The notes under the pieces are model-generated. The model made no database searches. It was not told where the DNA came from and saw nothing but the letters and a program-made list of their open reading frames with translations. Made by a program: the position numbers and the translations under genes. From Solobacterium sp. (GTDB taxonomy: Bacteria; Bacillota_I; Bacilli_A; Erysipelotrichales; Erysipelotrichaceae), in contig JAEEYJ010000173.1 of NCBI GenBank assembly GCA_016291725.1, positions 1-20,748 on the forward strand: DNA of 20,748 bases, in the 5' to 3' direction. Each line of letters begins with the position of its first letter. Position 1 is the first letter of the stretch. Shown here one piece after another: positions 8,856 through 16,233 of the stretch.

Positions 8856-9857
8856 ATGGGAAACTTTATCAAAAAGAATATCTTCCTCTGCATCATTGTC
8901 GCTTTGCTGGCGGGTATCAGTATCTTCTACATCTACGATACAAATACCGGAAAACTGCCGGGCAAGCGGAGCGGTGCAGAGGATGTCGTCTATGAAATCA
9001 ACGGGGAAGACATCACCGCGGAACAGTTCTATGAACAGATGTATAAAAACGGCGGCGAACAGATTGTCGCTGAGCTCTTCGGCAGAACAGTTGTCGATCA
9101 GGCCATTGAAACAACGTCTGAGCTGGAAGCCTGGGCACAGAACCAGGCTGCAGCTGTAGAGCAGAACTACAAGTACAGCTACGGTGCATCCTACAAGGAT
9201 GTCATCGGCCAGGCACTGATTCAGGCCGGCTACAGCGGATACGAAGATCTGCAGCAGTATATGCTGGATTACCGCAAGCGCATTCTGCTTAGTGAGAAAT
9301 ATGCTGAAGAGCACTTCGATGAACTGAAGATACGCAGCATCTCCTACCTTCTGATCATGGAGGGTGAGAACACCGAAGACCGCAAGGCGGCCGTCGATGC
9401 AGCGTTTGCAGAAGGAAAATCCTTTGCGGATGCAGCAAAGGAATTCTCTGAAGACACTTCCACATCCTACAACGGTGGTGTACTGGGTGTCATCGACATC
9501 AATACAAACAATCTGGATGCAGCATTTCTAACAGCTGCGCTGGAGCTTGAGGAAGGCATGACCAGCCCGTGGGTGCATTCCGAACAGTTCGGCTGGTTCC
9601 GCATCCACAACAATGCATCTACACCTGAGACACTGAAAGAAGCAGCAGTCCAGCAGGCACTTGCAGAAGCCGGGCTTGGCGAAGAAGACCGTGACCGGAT
9701 TTCCGTCAACCCCTATGAAACACTGGTATCCCAGTATGACACATCCCTGACCGGGAAAGCGATCCTGGAAACAGCCGAAGCGCTGGGCACGGATTTCGGC
9801 GGGGATGATGCACTGAAAGCAGTGATTCTGAAATACTATGGCGCAGAGGAAGAGTAA
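8856..9857 (+). CDS. Membrane-anchored parvulin/SurA-like foldase (peptidyl-prolyl isomerase family)
   Basis: The 333-aa protein has one N-terminal hydrophobic segment (about residues 8-27) after a short basic start, so it is probably anchored in the membrane with the bulk outside. A SurA-N-like helical chaperone region (about 45-155) is followed by a parvulin-type rotamase domain (about 158-254), recognised by FADAAKEFSEDTSTSYNGGVLGVID and QFGWFRIHN. The two usual parvulin histidines appear replaced: ISYLLI stands where SHILV is expected, and FGWFRI where FGYHII is expected. Chaperone activity is therefore safer than isomerase activity. The family includes PrsA, a secreted-protein foldase, but this one has no lipobox. 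GGGAGG lies before the ATG at 8856. It is first in an operon with a lipoprotein relative and a HIT gene. Confidence 0.85.
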   Translation: MGNFIKKNIFLCIIVALLAGISIFYIYDTNTGKLPGKRSGAEDVVYEINGEDITAEQFYEQMYKNGGEQIVAELFGRTVVDQAIETTSELEAWAQNQAAAVEQNYKYSYGASYKDVIGQALIQAGYSGYEDLQQYMLDYRKRILLSEKYAEEHFDELKIRSISYLLIMEGENTEDRKAAVDAAFAEGKSFADAAKEFSEDTSTSYNGGVLGVIDINTNNLDAAFLTAALELEEGMTSPWVHSEQFGWFRIHNNASTPETLKEAAVQQALAEAGLGEEDRDRISVNPYETLVSQYDTSLTGKAILETAEALGTDFGGDDALKAVILKYYGAEEE

Positions 9858-9867
9858 GGTGAGCAGT

Positions 9868-10746
9868 ATGAAGATGAACAGAACAATAAGCGTTCTGCTG
9901 TGTGCAGTCCTTCTCTCTGCCTGCAGTGACGCATCCGCATCCATCAAGGACAAGGACACCCCGGTCATCAAAGTCGGCGATACAGCCATTACAAAGGGCC
10001 AGGTCTACGAAAAGCTCCTGTCCTCCTACGGCGCTCCTGCCGTTATGCAGTACATTACGGAGGTCATCTGTGACAACGAAGTCGAAGTCACGGATGAGAT
10101 GAAGAAAACAGCGGAAGACAACCTGGAATACTACAAGAGCATTCTGGGCCCCTACTTTGAGGAATACATGACTGAACAAGGAATGGATGAAGAATCATTC
10201 CTGAAGCAGCAGATCCTCATGCAGCAGAATGACAGACTGCCTTCCCAGTATATCGAAGAGAACTACACTGAACTGGCGGAAAAGTACAAGCCGATTCTCG
10301 GTACAATCCTGTCATTCGAGACCATGGAGAATGCCAATGCTGCGGCATCCGCTCTGAAGGACGGGTCCATGAACGTAGAAGAAGCCATCAAAGCCTATGG
10401 ATCCACCTCAACCGGTGAAAGTGAACTGATTACGATTGATTCCCGCAATTATGACGCTGAAGCGATTGCAGTTCTCCGGGCTGCAGAGCCGGATGACGGC
10501 TGGGTTCCTGTGCAGTCCACATCCGGTACTGCGTATGTACTCCGGGTCGAGGAAAAGGACTACGATGCATTGAAGGAGCAGGCCATGACTGCCTTTGCGT
10601 CCATCAGTGATGTACAGTCGGCTGCTATGAAGTTCTTCTGCGAGAAATACGGGTTCAAGGTCTACGACATCAGCCTGATCTCCGACATTTACAAGAATTA
10701 TCCATATATTCTGAATCAGAGCATTCCGTCATCCCTGACGGACTAA
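9868..10746 (+). CDS. PrsA/SurA-N-like lipoprotein, probable extracytoplasmic chaperone
   Basis: The 292-aa protein starts with a lipoprotein signal peptide: MKMNRT, a hydrophobic stretch, then lipobox LSAC with Cys19. The mature part begins with a SurA-N-like pattern (VIKVGDTAITKGQVYEKLL, then a helical region to about 150). The following stretch could be a degenerate rotamase (FETMENANAAASAL ... AYVLRVEEKDYD), but no parvulin catalytic signature remains, so isomerase activity is doubtful. The frame is open to 9838; the ATG at 9868 is preferred because AAGGTGAG lies 4 bases before it and the signal peptide follows directly. It starts 10 bp after the upstream parvulin-like gene, likely its diverged tandem relative. 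Partner or client proteins cannot be told from sequence. Confidence 0.78.
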   Translation: MKMNRTISVLLCAVLLSACSDASASIKDKDTPVIKVGDTAITKGQVYEKLLSSYGAPAVMQYITEVICDNEVEVTDEMKKTAEDNLEYYKSILGPYFEEYMTEQGMDEESFLKQQILMQQNDRLPSQYIEENYTELAEKYKPILGTILSFETMENANAAASALKDGSMNVEEAIKAYGSTSTGESELITIDSRNYDAEAIAVLRAAEPDDGWVPVQSTSGTAYVLRVEEKDYDALKEQAMTAFASISDVQSAAMKFFCEKYGFKVYDISLISDIYKNYPYILNQSIPSSLTD

Positions 10747-13237: not shown

Positions 13238-14173
13238 CTACATCTTCGGTTTATAGAACTGCCTGTTCTCCAGCGCGAACAGCTTTACAGTCCACTGCCC
13301 TGCTTCCAATCCATCAAATGCCTGCTTCAGCGTATTGAGCCGCGCATCGAGATTATCTATCAGGTTGAGCACTTCCGCTTCCATGAGAACCGGTACGACA
13401 GGAGAGCCGAATTCCATCTTGCCGTGATGACTGAGCACCATATGCCTCAAGCACAGTGTCTCTTCCCTGCCGCCCAGACCGAGCCTGTCCGCTTCTTCAA
13501 CAAGCCAGCCGTGGCAGATGGATATGTGCCCGGTCAGACGTCCTTCCAGAGAGTATTCTGCGCTTACCAGTCCGCCCAGTTCAGCTGTTTTTCCCATATC
13601 GTGGATCAATGTACCTGCCATGAGCAGATCACGGTTCAGTTGGGGATATTGCCTGCAGATGACCTCTGCTGTCTGTGCCATGCCGAGTGTATGCTCCGCC
13701 AGTCCTCCCATATAGCCATGATGGATGCGGGAAGCTGCCGGGTAGGCAAAGAAGCGTTCCTGGGTTCTTGCCAGCATAGCAAGCACCAGTCTGCGCAGCG
13801 TCACATTCTGGATGCTGTCCGCAAGACTGTAGATCTCTTCGCGCATTTTCTGTGCGCCGATGGAGGAAGCCGGGATATACTCCGCCATCTCTTCTTCCGT
13901 GACATCCGCTCTGTCGATCCGGTTCACCCGCATCTGTAGTGCACGATTGTACAGAATGACATCCACTGCAGCATCAACAACCTTGCCGGCCTCTGCCTTG
14001 GCTTCATCTTCCGGCTTAACATCCCAGAACTTGGCATCCATGGATCCACTGCTGTCCTGGAACACCAGGTTCAGGTACGGTGCTCCTTTGGAAGTTGTAC
14101 CCTTGGTACAGCTTTTGATCAGATATCTGCCGACCAGACGGTCTTTTTCCTTCAAATCCTTAATTTTCGTCAT
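13238..14173 (-). CDS. yhaM: 3'-5' exonuclease YhaM (OB fold plus HD domain)
   Basis: The 311-aa protein matches YhaM, a Mn-dependent 3'-5' exonuclease of Gram-positive bacteria acting on RNA and single-stranded DNA. Residues 1-90 form an OB-fold nucleic-acid-binding domain (LVFQDSSGSMDAKFWDV). The HD domain contains GGLAEHTLGMAQ (His161), LIHDMGK (His191-Asp192) and SHHGKMEFGSP, the expected metal-binding pattern. The frame can be extended to a TTG at 14197, but the ATG at 14173 gives the family-like start MTKIKDLKEKD and has GGAG upstream. It overlaps the end of the glycosyltransferase-RecX gene by 14 bp and lies 8 bp before murT. Length is close to B. subtilis YhaM (314 aa). Confidence 0.93.
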   Translation of the reverse strand: MTKIKDLKEKDRLVGRYLIKSCTKGTTSKGAPYLNLVFQDSSGSMDAKFWDVKPEDEAKAEAGKVVDAAVDVILYNRALQMRVNRIDRADVTEEEMAEYIPASSIGAQKMREEIYSLADSIQNVTLRRLVLAMLARTQERFFAYPAASRIHHGYMGGLAEHTLGMAQTAEVICRQYPQLNRDLLMAGTLIHDMGKTAELGGLVSAEYSLEGRLTGHISICHGWLVEEADRLGLGGREETLCLRHMVLSHHGKMEFGSPVVPVLMEAEVLNLIDNLDARLNTLKQAFDGLEAGQWTVKLFALENRQFYKPKM

Positions 14174-16145
14174 ATTCCGGCCACTCCGTTTCTTCAAGTA
14201 TACGATGAATATCTTCGCTTCTGAAACCCTGCGTCATACAGTAACGGAACACAGCGCGTTTCAATGCGTCTCCTGACTGCTTCTTCTGCAGACGCTTCAT
14301 TGCTTTTGCTATGCATTTGCGGAGGTATTCATCCTGGTTCTCTTCGTCTTCCTGCAGATCGAGCTGCTCGACAGTGTCCTTTGCAGTTGACAGATCGAAG
14401 CCTTTCGCTACCATGCGCTCTATGATCTTCTGCTTTTTGCGGATCAGCGATTGATCGTGGATGGACGCAGAGGCCTTTTCGGCAAACGCTTTTGCGTACA
14501 GTTCGTCGTTCTCCGTTGCGAGGACATCCTCGATCACTTCCTGGGATATTCCTTTCCGCCGCAGATTCCTGAGAATCTTCTCACGTCCTGTCAGGGACGC
14601 TCTCAGACTGTTTACAGCATTCTCACAGTACTGACGGTCATTGATCAGCCCTTTCTCCTCAAGAGTGTCCAGAATCCGGTTCATTTCCACCGGTGTGCAC
14701 TCTGTATGCGTACGCATCCAGTCGAACAGTTCATACCGGGATCTGTCCTTGACCGACAGTCTGCGCAGGCAGGCCTGATAGGCCTTTACGTACTGTTCCC
14801 TGTTCCTCAGATCCTCGACATGCTTCTTCGTTAAGGTACGTCCGGCTTTCAGCCCTTCCTTCACGTAGTCATCCAGAGTAACGGATACCGTTCCCTTAGC
14901 ACCCTTTTTATCCTCCAGGGTCAGGATTACCGTATCGCTTCTGATATTGACAGCTGTGATCCTGGACGTATTCTCATAGAGCCATATGGCTTCTCTGTAC
15001 ACTTCCAGCACATCCCGGCAGAAGGATTCCTTGCTGTAGGGTGCCGCGCATTCTGTGCACCAGGAAGCGATCCGTGCCCTTTCCTGCACATCAGTGGACG
15101 CAAAACGCACCACAGCTTCCGCAAGCTCATCCGGGCTGCTGAAGTACCAGCCGCTCCTGCCTTCCTTCACCAACGCAGCGAGCGCTTCATCGCGGCGCAC
15201 CAGGATCGGAATGCCGGATGCCAGCGCTTCTATGAACGTGATGCCCTGCGTTTCGGATAATGAGGCTGAGATGAACGCGTCTGACGCAGCATAGTAGTGA
15301 TGGATGGTATCAATCGGCCGGCTTCCTGCCAGTACAATCGCAGGCATTCCTTCGGCTTTGGCTTTCATGCGCTCATAATCCGGACCATCGCCTACGATCA
15401 GAAGCCGGATATCTTCCCGCTTCGCCGAAGCCAGCGCAAAGCCGTCAATGATCATCTCCACCGACTTTTCTTCCGCGATCCGTCCGACATAGACAAAGAC
15501 CGTATCCGTTTCATGGAAACCGAATTCCTTTCTCAGTTCCGCACTGATTGTTCTGTCCTGGTTCTCCGGGCGGAATTTCTGCAGGTCCAGACCGGTCGGA
15601 ATGACATTGATCTTCGTATGTACATGATAGCGTTCCAGAAGCTCCTTGGTCTTTTCGCTCGGTGCAATGACTTCAATCGAGGAGTCCCCGTAGATCCTCG
15701 ACAGCCTGGCTACCAGTTTCTTTGCATATTCGTCAAACGTCCTGGAATCAAAGAAATTAGCGTAGTGTGTATAGTCTTCATAGGTCGTGTGATACGTACT
15801 GATCAAAGGGATTTCCAGCATCCGGGCGCAGAAGCGGGCAAAGATGCCTACACCGAATTCAGTCTGTACATGGATGACATCCAGATCGAGCTCCTTGATC
15901 AGATTGAATGCATGGGCATGGATCGGCGTTGTCACCGCATAGCCGTACAGTGCCTTTATGGTCATGCCGGCAAGGTGCAGGACGGTATGTTCTTCATTCC
16001 ATTCCGCAAGACCGAGTCCGTGCTTCGGCGCAACTACAAAAACATCGTGGCCTGCCCTTCTCAGCTCCGTGAACAGAATGAATGTACTGTTCGCAACCCC
16101 GTTGATATCCGGTACATAGGTATCTGTAAACAATCCGATCCGCAT
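14160..16145 (-). CDS. Fusion protein: GT4 glycolipid-type glycosyltransferase plus full-length RecX
   Basis: One uninterrupted 661-aa frame holds two proteins usually made separately. Residues 1-394 are a GT-B glycosyltransferase of family 4: MRIGLFTDTYVPDINGVA, HVQTEFGVG, STYHTTYEDYTHY, and the E-x7-E motif Glu298/Glu306 in SETQGITFIEA. This set resembles bacterial diacylglycerol glucosyltransferases (CpoA, alMGS), so it probably adds sugar to a membrane glycolipid. Residues 395-661 resemble a complete RecX (B. subtilis RecX about 264 aa): the beta-rich N-terminus ITAVNIRSDTVILTLEDK, VKAYQACLRRLSVKDRSRYEL, and three-helix repeats such as NRILDTLEEKGLINDRQY and ILRNLRRKGISQEVIEDVL. RecX modulates RecA filaments. 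The ATG at 16145 follows GGGAGG at 7 bp; an ATG at 16172 is less likely. It leads the operon with yhaM, murT and gatD. Confidence 0.88.
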   Translation of the reverse strand: MRIGLFTDTYVPDINGVANSTFILFTELRRAGHDVFVVAPKHGLGLAEWNEEHTVLHLAGMTIKALYGYAVTTPIHAHAFNLIKELDLDVIHVQTEFGVGIFARFCARMLEIPLISTYHTTYEDYTHYANFFDSRTFDEYAKKLVARLSRIYGDSSIEVIAPSEKTKELLERYHVHTKINVIPTGLDLQKFRPENQDRTISAELRKEFGFHETDTVFVYVGRIAEEKSVEMIIDGFALASAKREDIRLLIVGDGPDYERMKAKAEGMPAIVLAGSRPIDTIHHYYAASDAFISASLSETQGITFIEALASGIPILVRRDEALAALVKEGRSGWYFSSPDELAEAVVRFASTDVQERARIASWCTECAAPYSKESFCRDVLEVYREAIWLYENTSRITAVNIRSDTVILTLEDKKGAKGTVSVTLDDYVKEGLKAGRTLTKKHVEDLRNREQYVKAYQACLRRLSVKDRSRYELFDWMRTHTECTPVEMNRILDTLEEKGLINDRQYCENAVNSLRASLTGREKILRNLRRKGISQEVIEDVLATENDELYAKAFAEKASASIHDQSLIRKKQKIIERMVAKGFDLSTAKDTVEQLDLQEDEENQDEYLRKCIAKAMKRLQKKQSGDALKRAVFRYCMTQGFRSEDIHRILEETEWPEYDEN

Positions 16146-16170: not shown

Positions 16171-16233
16171 ATTATACCTCATTTGCCTGCCCTGATTCTT
16201 CCGTATTCTGCAGCAGACGATGAAAAAGTATAT
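16171..16233 (-). promoter_or_regulatory. Candidate promoters for the glycosyltransferase-RecX operon
   Basis: On the minus strand an extended -10, TGATATACT with hexamer 16233-16228, lies about 80 bp before the start codon, and a perfect TATAAT lies at 16176-16171, about 25 bp before it. Neither has a convincing -35 at 16-18 bp. The downstream TATAAT would place the start site very close to the GGGAGG ribosome binding site. Which is used cannot be decided from sequence. Confidence 0.35.

Follow-up and report, generated by a model that had tools for sequence, protein, structure and literature searches.

The window analysed in this study is a stretch of 20,748 nucleotides from a contig of Solobacterium sp., and its minus strand carries at 14160..16145 a gene in which a GT4 glycosyltransferase and a RecX protein share one reading frame. 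The frame runs from 16145 to 14160 (stop included) and comprises 661 codons with no internal stop, beginning with MRIGLFTD and ending with YDEN; the plus strand of the same interval is interrupted by stops. An ATG at 16172 also lies in the open frame and would give a protein of 670 aa, and inspection of the sequence places GGGAGG 6 bases ahead of the ATG at 16145. The first-pass annotation had described a stop-free frame of 661 codons, with no strand given, in which a complete GT4 enzyme and a complete RecX meet at the junction YENTSR-ITAVNIR. Our analysis bears this description out: the frame lies on the minus strand, the junction reads as described and all Pfam domains of both parts score over their gathering cut-offs.

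The glycosyltransferase half (residues 1-391; 14973..16145, minus strand) contains Glyco_transf_4 at residues 14-189 (PF13439, 95.1 bits against a cut-off of 28.5) and Glycos_transf_1 at residues 203-358 (PF00534, 90.4 bits against 26.4; whole-protein scores throughout). It has the GT-B fold, and Glu298 and Glu306 (15228..15254, minus strand), both invariant in 71 aligned fusions, form what we take to be the EX7E motif, so that the fold and the motif by which GT4 enzymes are recognized are both present. The best curated match of residues 1-388 is Mgs, the GT4 enzyme alpha-monoglucosyldiacylglycerol synthase (NF049988), with 245.2 bits, under the equivalog cut-off of 400. The fusion resembles Mgs in its GT4 domains and in the glycolipid genes found nearby in relatives, and differs from it in the score and in carrying a RecX half. 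We name Mgs as the nearest relative only, and the predicted product of this half is monoglucosyl-diacylglycerol, made at the membrane.

The RecX half (residues 393-661; 14163..14969, minus strand) includes the N-terminal strands and three helix modules at residues 455-650 (14196..14783, minus strand), namely RecX_HTH1 at 455-477 (PF21982, 37.8 bits), RecX_HTH2 at 502-542 (PF02631, 36.4 bits) and RecX_HTH3 at 605-650 (PF21981, 33.4 bits), each against a cut-off of 26. Its structural model has a pLDDT of 96.6, and the six Foldseek matches at E <0.001 are all RecX chains. The doubt whether the C-terminal part is RecX at all is thus settled by both the profile search and the fold. Compared with RecX of the Bacillus and lactobacillus type (NF010733; PDB 3d5l, 3e3v), that of the fusion is not free-standing, has no separate start at the joint and scores lower, residues 405-654 reaching 140.6 bits, under the equivalog cut-off of 240. 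Both halves therefore belong to the right families, yet fall under the naming cut-offs. The RecX half is predicted to restrain RecA filaments, RecA being its putative target. It is also more variable than the glycosyltransferase half, with a mean majority fraction of 0.48 vs 0.60.

The joint (residues 386-405; 14931..14990, minus strand), where the last glycosyltransferase helix passes into the first RecX strand, was characterized by indels, by the model and by a scan for start codons. The structure prediction that had been proposed as a check returned a GT-B fold and a RecX fold joined without a linker, and each half matches crystal structures of its own family. In the model, helix 372-391 runs almost straight into strand 394-402, with no loop in between. 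No indels occur at residues 372-403 in 116 fusions. We dropped this as proof of an interface after a control with equally variable windows, of which 46/143 carry indels in two sequences or fewer, so that the indel-free joint is not extreme.

A gene for a YhaM-type exoribonuclease (13238..14197, minus strand; NF010007, 316.8 bits, below the cut-off of 460) overlaps the end of the fusion, its likely start being the ATG at 14173 in the same frame. Such a gene follows the fusion directly in all 20 fused loci that were mapped (L197-L216). A second glycosyltransferase gene lies upstream in 15 of them, and two of the other five loci stop at a contig edge. In L214 this second enzyme is IagA/BgsA (481.7 bits against a cut-off of 460), with an LPG_synthase_TM gene in between. 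In relatives, the glycosyltransferase half thus sits amid glycolipid genes and the RecX half next to yhaM. In the window, the gene upstream of the fusion is a divergent dipeptidase gene, so the fusion is not beside IagA/BgsA here, and the window's incomplete genome holds no IagA/BgsA match over the cut-off.

SOS control was considered and set aside, as no site agreeing with GAACNNNNGTTC at a tolerance of one mismatch lies in the stretch that separates the fusion from the upstream gene. Over the whole window this motif, with the same tolerance, occurs 16 times vs 7.8 expected, and none of 100 shuffles reached 16. Searches of the window found no Rfam families or tRNAs, and a promoter and terminator scan stayed near chance. 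At 8856-10746, the window also holds two adjacent genes with peptidyl-prolyl isomerase matches, the second of which is under its cut-off.

Distribution and conservation of the fusion

Within the family, 145 genomes from 59 genera were sampled, including the window's own, and the genome list was checked for duplicates. A single match from residue 1 to at least residue 604 was obtained in 117 of them. Eleven of these matches had been counted with a stop codon; five, read as loci (L006, L010, L011, L015, L021), are one fused frame each, and the other six are open frames of 652-711 aa. The remaining 28 genomes comprise, among others, split or partial cases, three in which the match is interrupted in frame or by the end of a contig (G116, G117, G142) and two without a match (G016, G055). 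From the loci, 116 distinct fused proteins were read, and 114 of these measure 654-671 aa. As a side observation, G016 and G055 are nominally near-complete members of the family in which neither the fusion nor RecA was matched, possibly a data problem. The genome G112, which has 10% contamination, contains two equal-scoring copies of the fusion (C1:2816118 and C1:2929749) separated by about 114 kb.

In a wider sample of the class (296 genomes), a full match was present in 27 of the 29 listed genomes of this family (f1) and in all 13 of a second family of the same order (f2). In the other families of that sample none of the matches listed extended over both halves, 41 genomes without a match being outside the listing. 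The phylum sample (295 genomes) likewise contained, among the matches listed, none over both halves outside f1 and f2; its matches come from genomes of the same class only, and Bacillus, lactobacilli and clostridia lie outside the genome survey. The fusion is present in most sampled members of Erysipelotrichales, and the search for a lineage restriction of the two-domain architecture, which had been proposed as a check, shows it confined in our samples to this one order. Many of the sampled members are animal gut bacteria. Named records with the fusion include Holdemania filiformis, H. massiliensis, Bulleidia extructa, Anaerorhabdus furcosa and Lactimicrobium massiliense, so that cultured strains are among them.

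A protein database search with the RecX part yielded three relatives of 661, 664 and 662 aa, with 96, 60 and 33% identity over that part, and because it gave only these three, the distribution rests on the genome samples. The closest of them (P0002) has the same length as the window's fusion, is 96% identical over the RecX part and represents 27 member sequences. Together with the 117 family genomes, this disposes of chance as an explanation and of the concern that a sequencing or assembly error had hidden a stop or frameshift.

Five long frames outside the order (586-677 aa; G462, G300, G318, G285, G309) looked at first like a second fusion, which the inspection of three of them, in G462, G309 and G300, did not bear out. 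Those of G462 (L157) and G309 (L159) are extended at the N-terminus and contain no RecX, and that of G300 (L158) has no RecX match. L157:120-1907, from one genus of the outgroup family f8, is a GT4 enzyme whose extra N-terminal part resembles an alpha/beta hydrolase, and L159:241-1920 is one whose extra N-terminal part resembles a zinc-dependent phospholipase C; G300, G318 and G285 also have long GT4 frames.

Both halves of the fusion are under purifying selection. In 24 non-overlapping pairs of fused genes (74-98% identical), dN/dS was at most 0.178 for the glycosyltransferase half (22 pairs with a value) and at most 0.150 for the RecX half (23 pairs with a value), with dS saturated in several pairs; between the window's fusion and L057 it was 0.061 and 0.055, respectively. 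The window's genome, a fragmented assembly of 218 contigs that is 80.9% complete, has one RecX_HTH2 match over the cut-off, and this lies inside the fusion. RecX_HTH2 was found in 68 of 118 genomes of the order, chiefly in frames close to 660 aa long, and in 26 of these 68 over the cut-off. As only 68 of 118 genomes were hit, the short model is insensitive and the lack of a second RecX is weakly supported for the order. RecA was found in 114 of the 118 genomes, including that of the window (C37, 466 bits).

Probable origin from overlapping genes and later history

The same three genes in the same order are found outside the order in unfused form. Of the 20 outgroup loci that were mapped (L177-L196), 12 contain glycosyltransferase, recX and yhaM as consecutive genes, recX of L185 and L192 being assigned by Pfam. 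An unassigned 209-aa frame takes the place of recX in L186, the next gene in L187 encodes triosephosphate isomerase, and the other six loci had no recX match. All 11 loci from the outgroup families f8 and f19 have recX as a separate gene in the +1 frame, which extends without a stop across the final glycosyltransferase codons. Nine of these loci have a GTG 22 nt ahead of the glycosyltransferase stop, with GAGGT or GGAGGT, which derives from Glu-Val codons, 8 nt before it. The exceptions are L181, with an ATG at -28, and L177, whose only ATG is at -49 and lacks a ribosome site. Programmed frameshifting in the outgroup pairs was set aside because in 9 of 11 loci the GTG and its ribosome site account for the expression of recX. 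In contrast to these pairs, the fused genes have no conserved start for RecX at the joint.

Among the meanings that the first-pass annotation had considered, a simple operon fusion is supported as the origin by these separate, overlapping genes. We posit that the ancestor had two overlapping genes that were already co-translated, and that these were joined once, by a merging of frames. A net loss of one base (or a gain of two) in the overlap would yield a fusion of about the observed length, and the own start of recX would have been lost after the merge. Both modules would have kept their own work, now in a 1:1 ratio. This order of events is put together from present-day sequences and probably reflects the ancestral one. 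Frame transitions and translationally coupled pairs, as treated in the relevant sections of PMC3711429, likewise involve an overlap of stop and start between neighbours and allow for homologues that are fused in another genome; recX or a glycosyltransferase is never mentioned in the main text of that paper.

A quick tree was built from 102 glycosyltransferases (71 sequences representing the 116 fused ones, 7 split, 4 glycosyltransferase-only and 20 outgroup). It places all fused and split sequences on one side of a branch with an SH-aLRT of 92. The fused label requires five changes on this tree, at least three of which are forced by its starred branches. The split sequences are nested in four places, i.e., L162/L164, L160, L165 and, within the window's genus, L173-L175. 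Their recX is again in the +1 frame in 6 of 7 cases; L175, where the two genes overlap by ATGA, uses the +2 frame. A lone frameshift in a draft assembly may be an error; L173 and L174 agree with each other and come from two genomes. According to the tree, the fusion likely arose once and was apparently reversed on several later occasions. Two of the glycosyltransferase-only sequences, L166 and L167, fall among the outgroup and may represent another enzyme.

Other genomes have kept RecX and lost the enzyme half. In L170, L171 and L172, recX begins near fusion residue 376-397 with no glycosyltransferase half ahead of it, and the same is true for L218 (G205). Two further frames, L168:2261-3418 (385 aa; G125, an assembly of one contig) and L169:1796-3118 (440 aa, G015), start with MRIG like the glycosyltransferase and run into RecX, without the second glycosyltransferase half including EX7E. 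Against a profile of the glycosyltransferase N-half, the N-terminal parts of these remnants scored 34.7 bits for G015 (P0126) and a weak 9.6 bits for G125 (P0125, model positions 1-62), the best of 400 shuffles reaching 4.0 bits. With hhalign, only the last glycosyltransferase helix and RecX were aligned.

With respect to the surrounding pathway, IagA/BgsA had no match at 1e-20 in G125, G140, G026 and G115 and 75.7 bits in G015. Six of the seven fused genomes in the same comparison passed its cut-off (G043 fails). The enzyme half was likely lost when its pathway was lost, with RecX retained, but the scores of the split genomes, which also lie under the cut-off (G103 149.5, G032 143.5, G122 141.3 and G064 96.2 bits), argue against a simple link. 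Without a start of its own, RecX in the fusion could be read only from the glycosyltransferase start, and decay of the enzyme would then have to preserve the frame, barring the emergence of a new start for recX. The sequences fit this constraint, in that two genomes have RecX after a shrunken in-frame remnant and others have a separate recX start.

Readings of the joined gene

We know of no link between envelope glycolipid synthesis and the control of RecA. According to our analysis, the locus is best read as an ancient, single, frame-merging fusion of an overlapping pair through a net one-base change, in which GT4 and RecX likely act independently of each other in fixed one-to-one amounts; we give this reading a probability of about two in three. 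That the gene was split again, and that the enzyme was lost while RecX was kept, suggests that RecX does not need the glycosyltransferase half, and the two activities are presumably independent. The joined form has persisted for long, a hint of selection for joining that independence does not explain.

Such selection would have a reason if the glycosyltransferase half held RecX at the anionic-lipid membrane and RecA filaments were dismantled there, in line with the membrane recruitment that had been raised for this gene before. We regard this as unlikely, since split pairs and RecX without a glycosyltransferase exist and the remnants may persist only for their start codon. Consistent with it are the retention of the fusion in 117 of 145 family genomes and the N-terminal piece ahead of RecX in the two lineages that lack the second glycosyltransferase half. 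Related glycolipid synthases are membrane-associated and in need of anionic lipids (PMC9692976), and bundles of RecA are described as interacting with the inner membrane's anionic phospholipids (PMC6363387). RecX of B. subtilis co-localizes with RecA threads and, in some of the competent cells, lies at a pole (PMC3527212). By analogy, these three sources make a putative recruitment of RecX to the membrane more plausible. RecX would then be a membrane protein in Erysipelotrichales, situated at anionic-lipid patches, and the control of recombination would be tied to glycolipid synthesis; the loss of the start would have locked the halves together, and the stub of a dead enzyme would have been kept in two lineages. 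We consider this extended scenario doubtful as well.

It is improbable that two products are made, with a free RecX arising in addition, either from an internal start or from cleavage close to the joint. An internal start would have a precedent in the outgroup, where recX starts within the glycosyltransferase gene, and windows starting at residues 400-412 contain a start codon with a ribosome site in 13-16% of the fused genes vs a background of 7.9% (mean; sd 4.0, maximum 17.2%). Yet at residues 385-405 this combination is found in only 4 of 116 fused genes, on which grounds an internal RecX start at the joint was rejected, and the window's fusion has no start codon there. The later starts would remove part of the first RecX strands, and the modelled joint offers no loop. 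A shortened RecX may be made in some species from starts slightly downstream of the joint; in general, we infer that the fusion is translated as a single chain.

That the RecX half has ceased to act on RecA and instead regulates or stabilizes the glycosyltransferase is very improbable, since for all its greater variability and its score under the curated naming cut-off the RecX fold is intact, RecA is present and RecX is retained in genomes without the glycosyltransferase half.

Two housekeeping functions reside in one gene across most sampled members of an order. If RecX is made only in fused form, both its quantity and its location would depend on lipid synthesis and not on DNA damage. In addition, the course of a natural gene fusion can be followed at this locus with unusual completeness, from an overlap containing an internal start through the merging of frames and the loss of the start to splitting and in-frame decay. 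We found no description of the GT4-RecX architecture in the openly licensed literature. A study of Erysipelotrichia genomes (PMC3749518) has no mention of fusion, fused, recX or glycosyl, and the RecX passages of PMC11676981 concern other RecX proteins. Both domains belong to families already known, and the fused protein is present in databases under either name. Of 7999 scored candidates in the protein database, 1930 matched at E 1e-100 or better, and among the best 120 of these 1930 the fused proteins are labelled either RecX regulator or glycosyltransferase, depending on the record. This is a warning for annotation, as a fused protein may be named after one half or the other.
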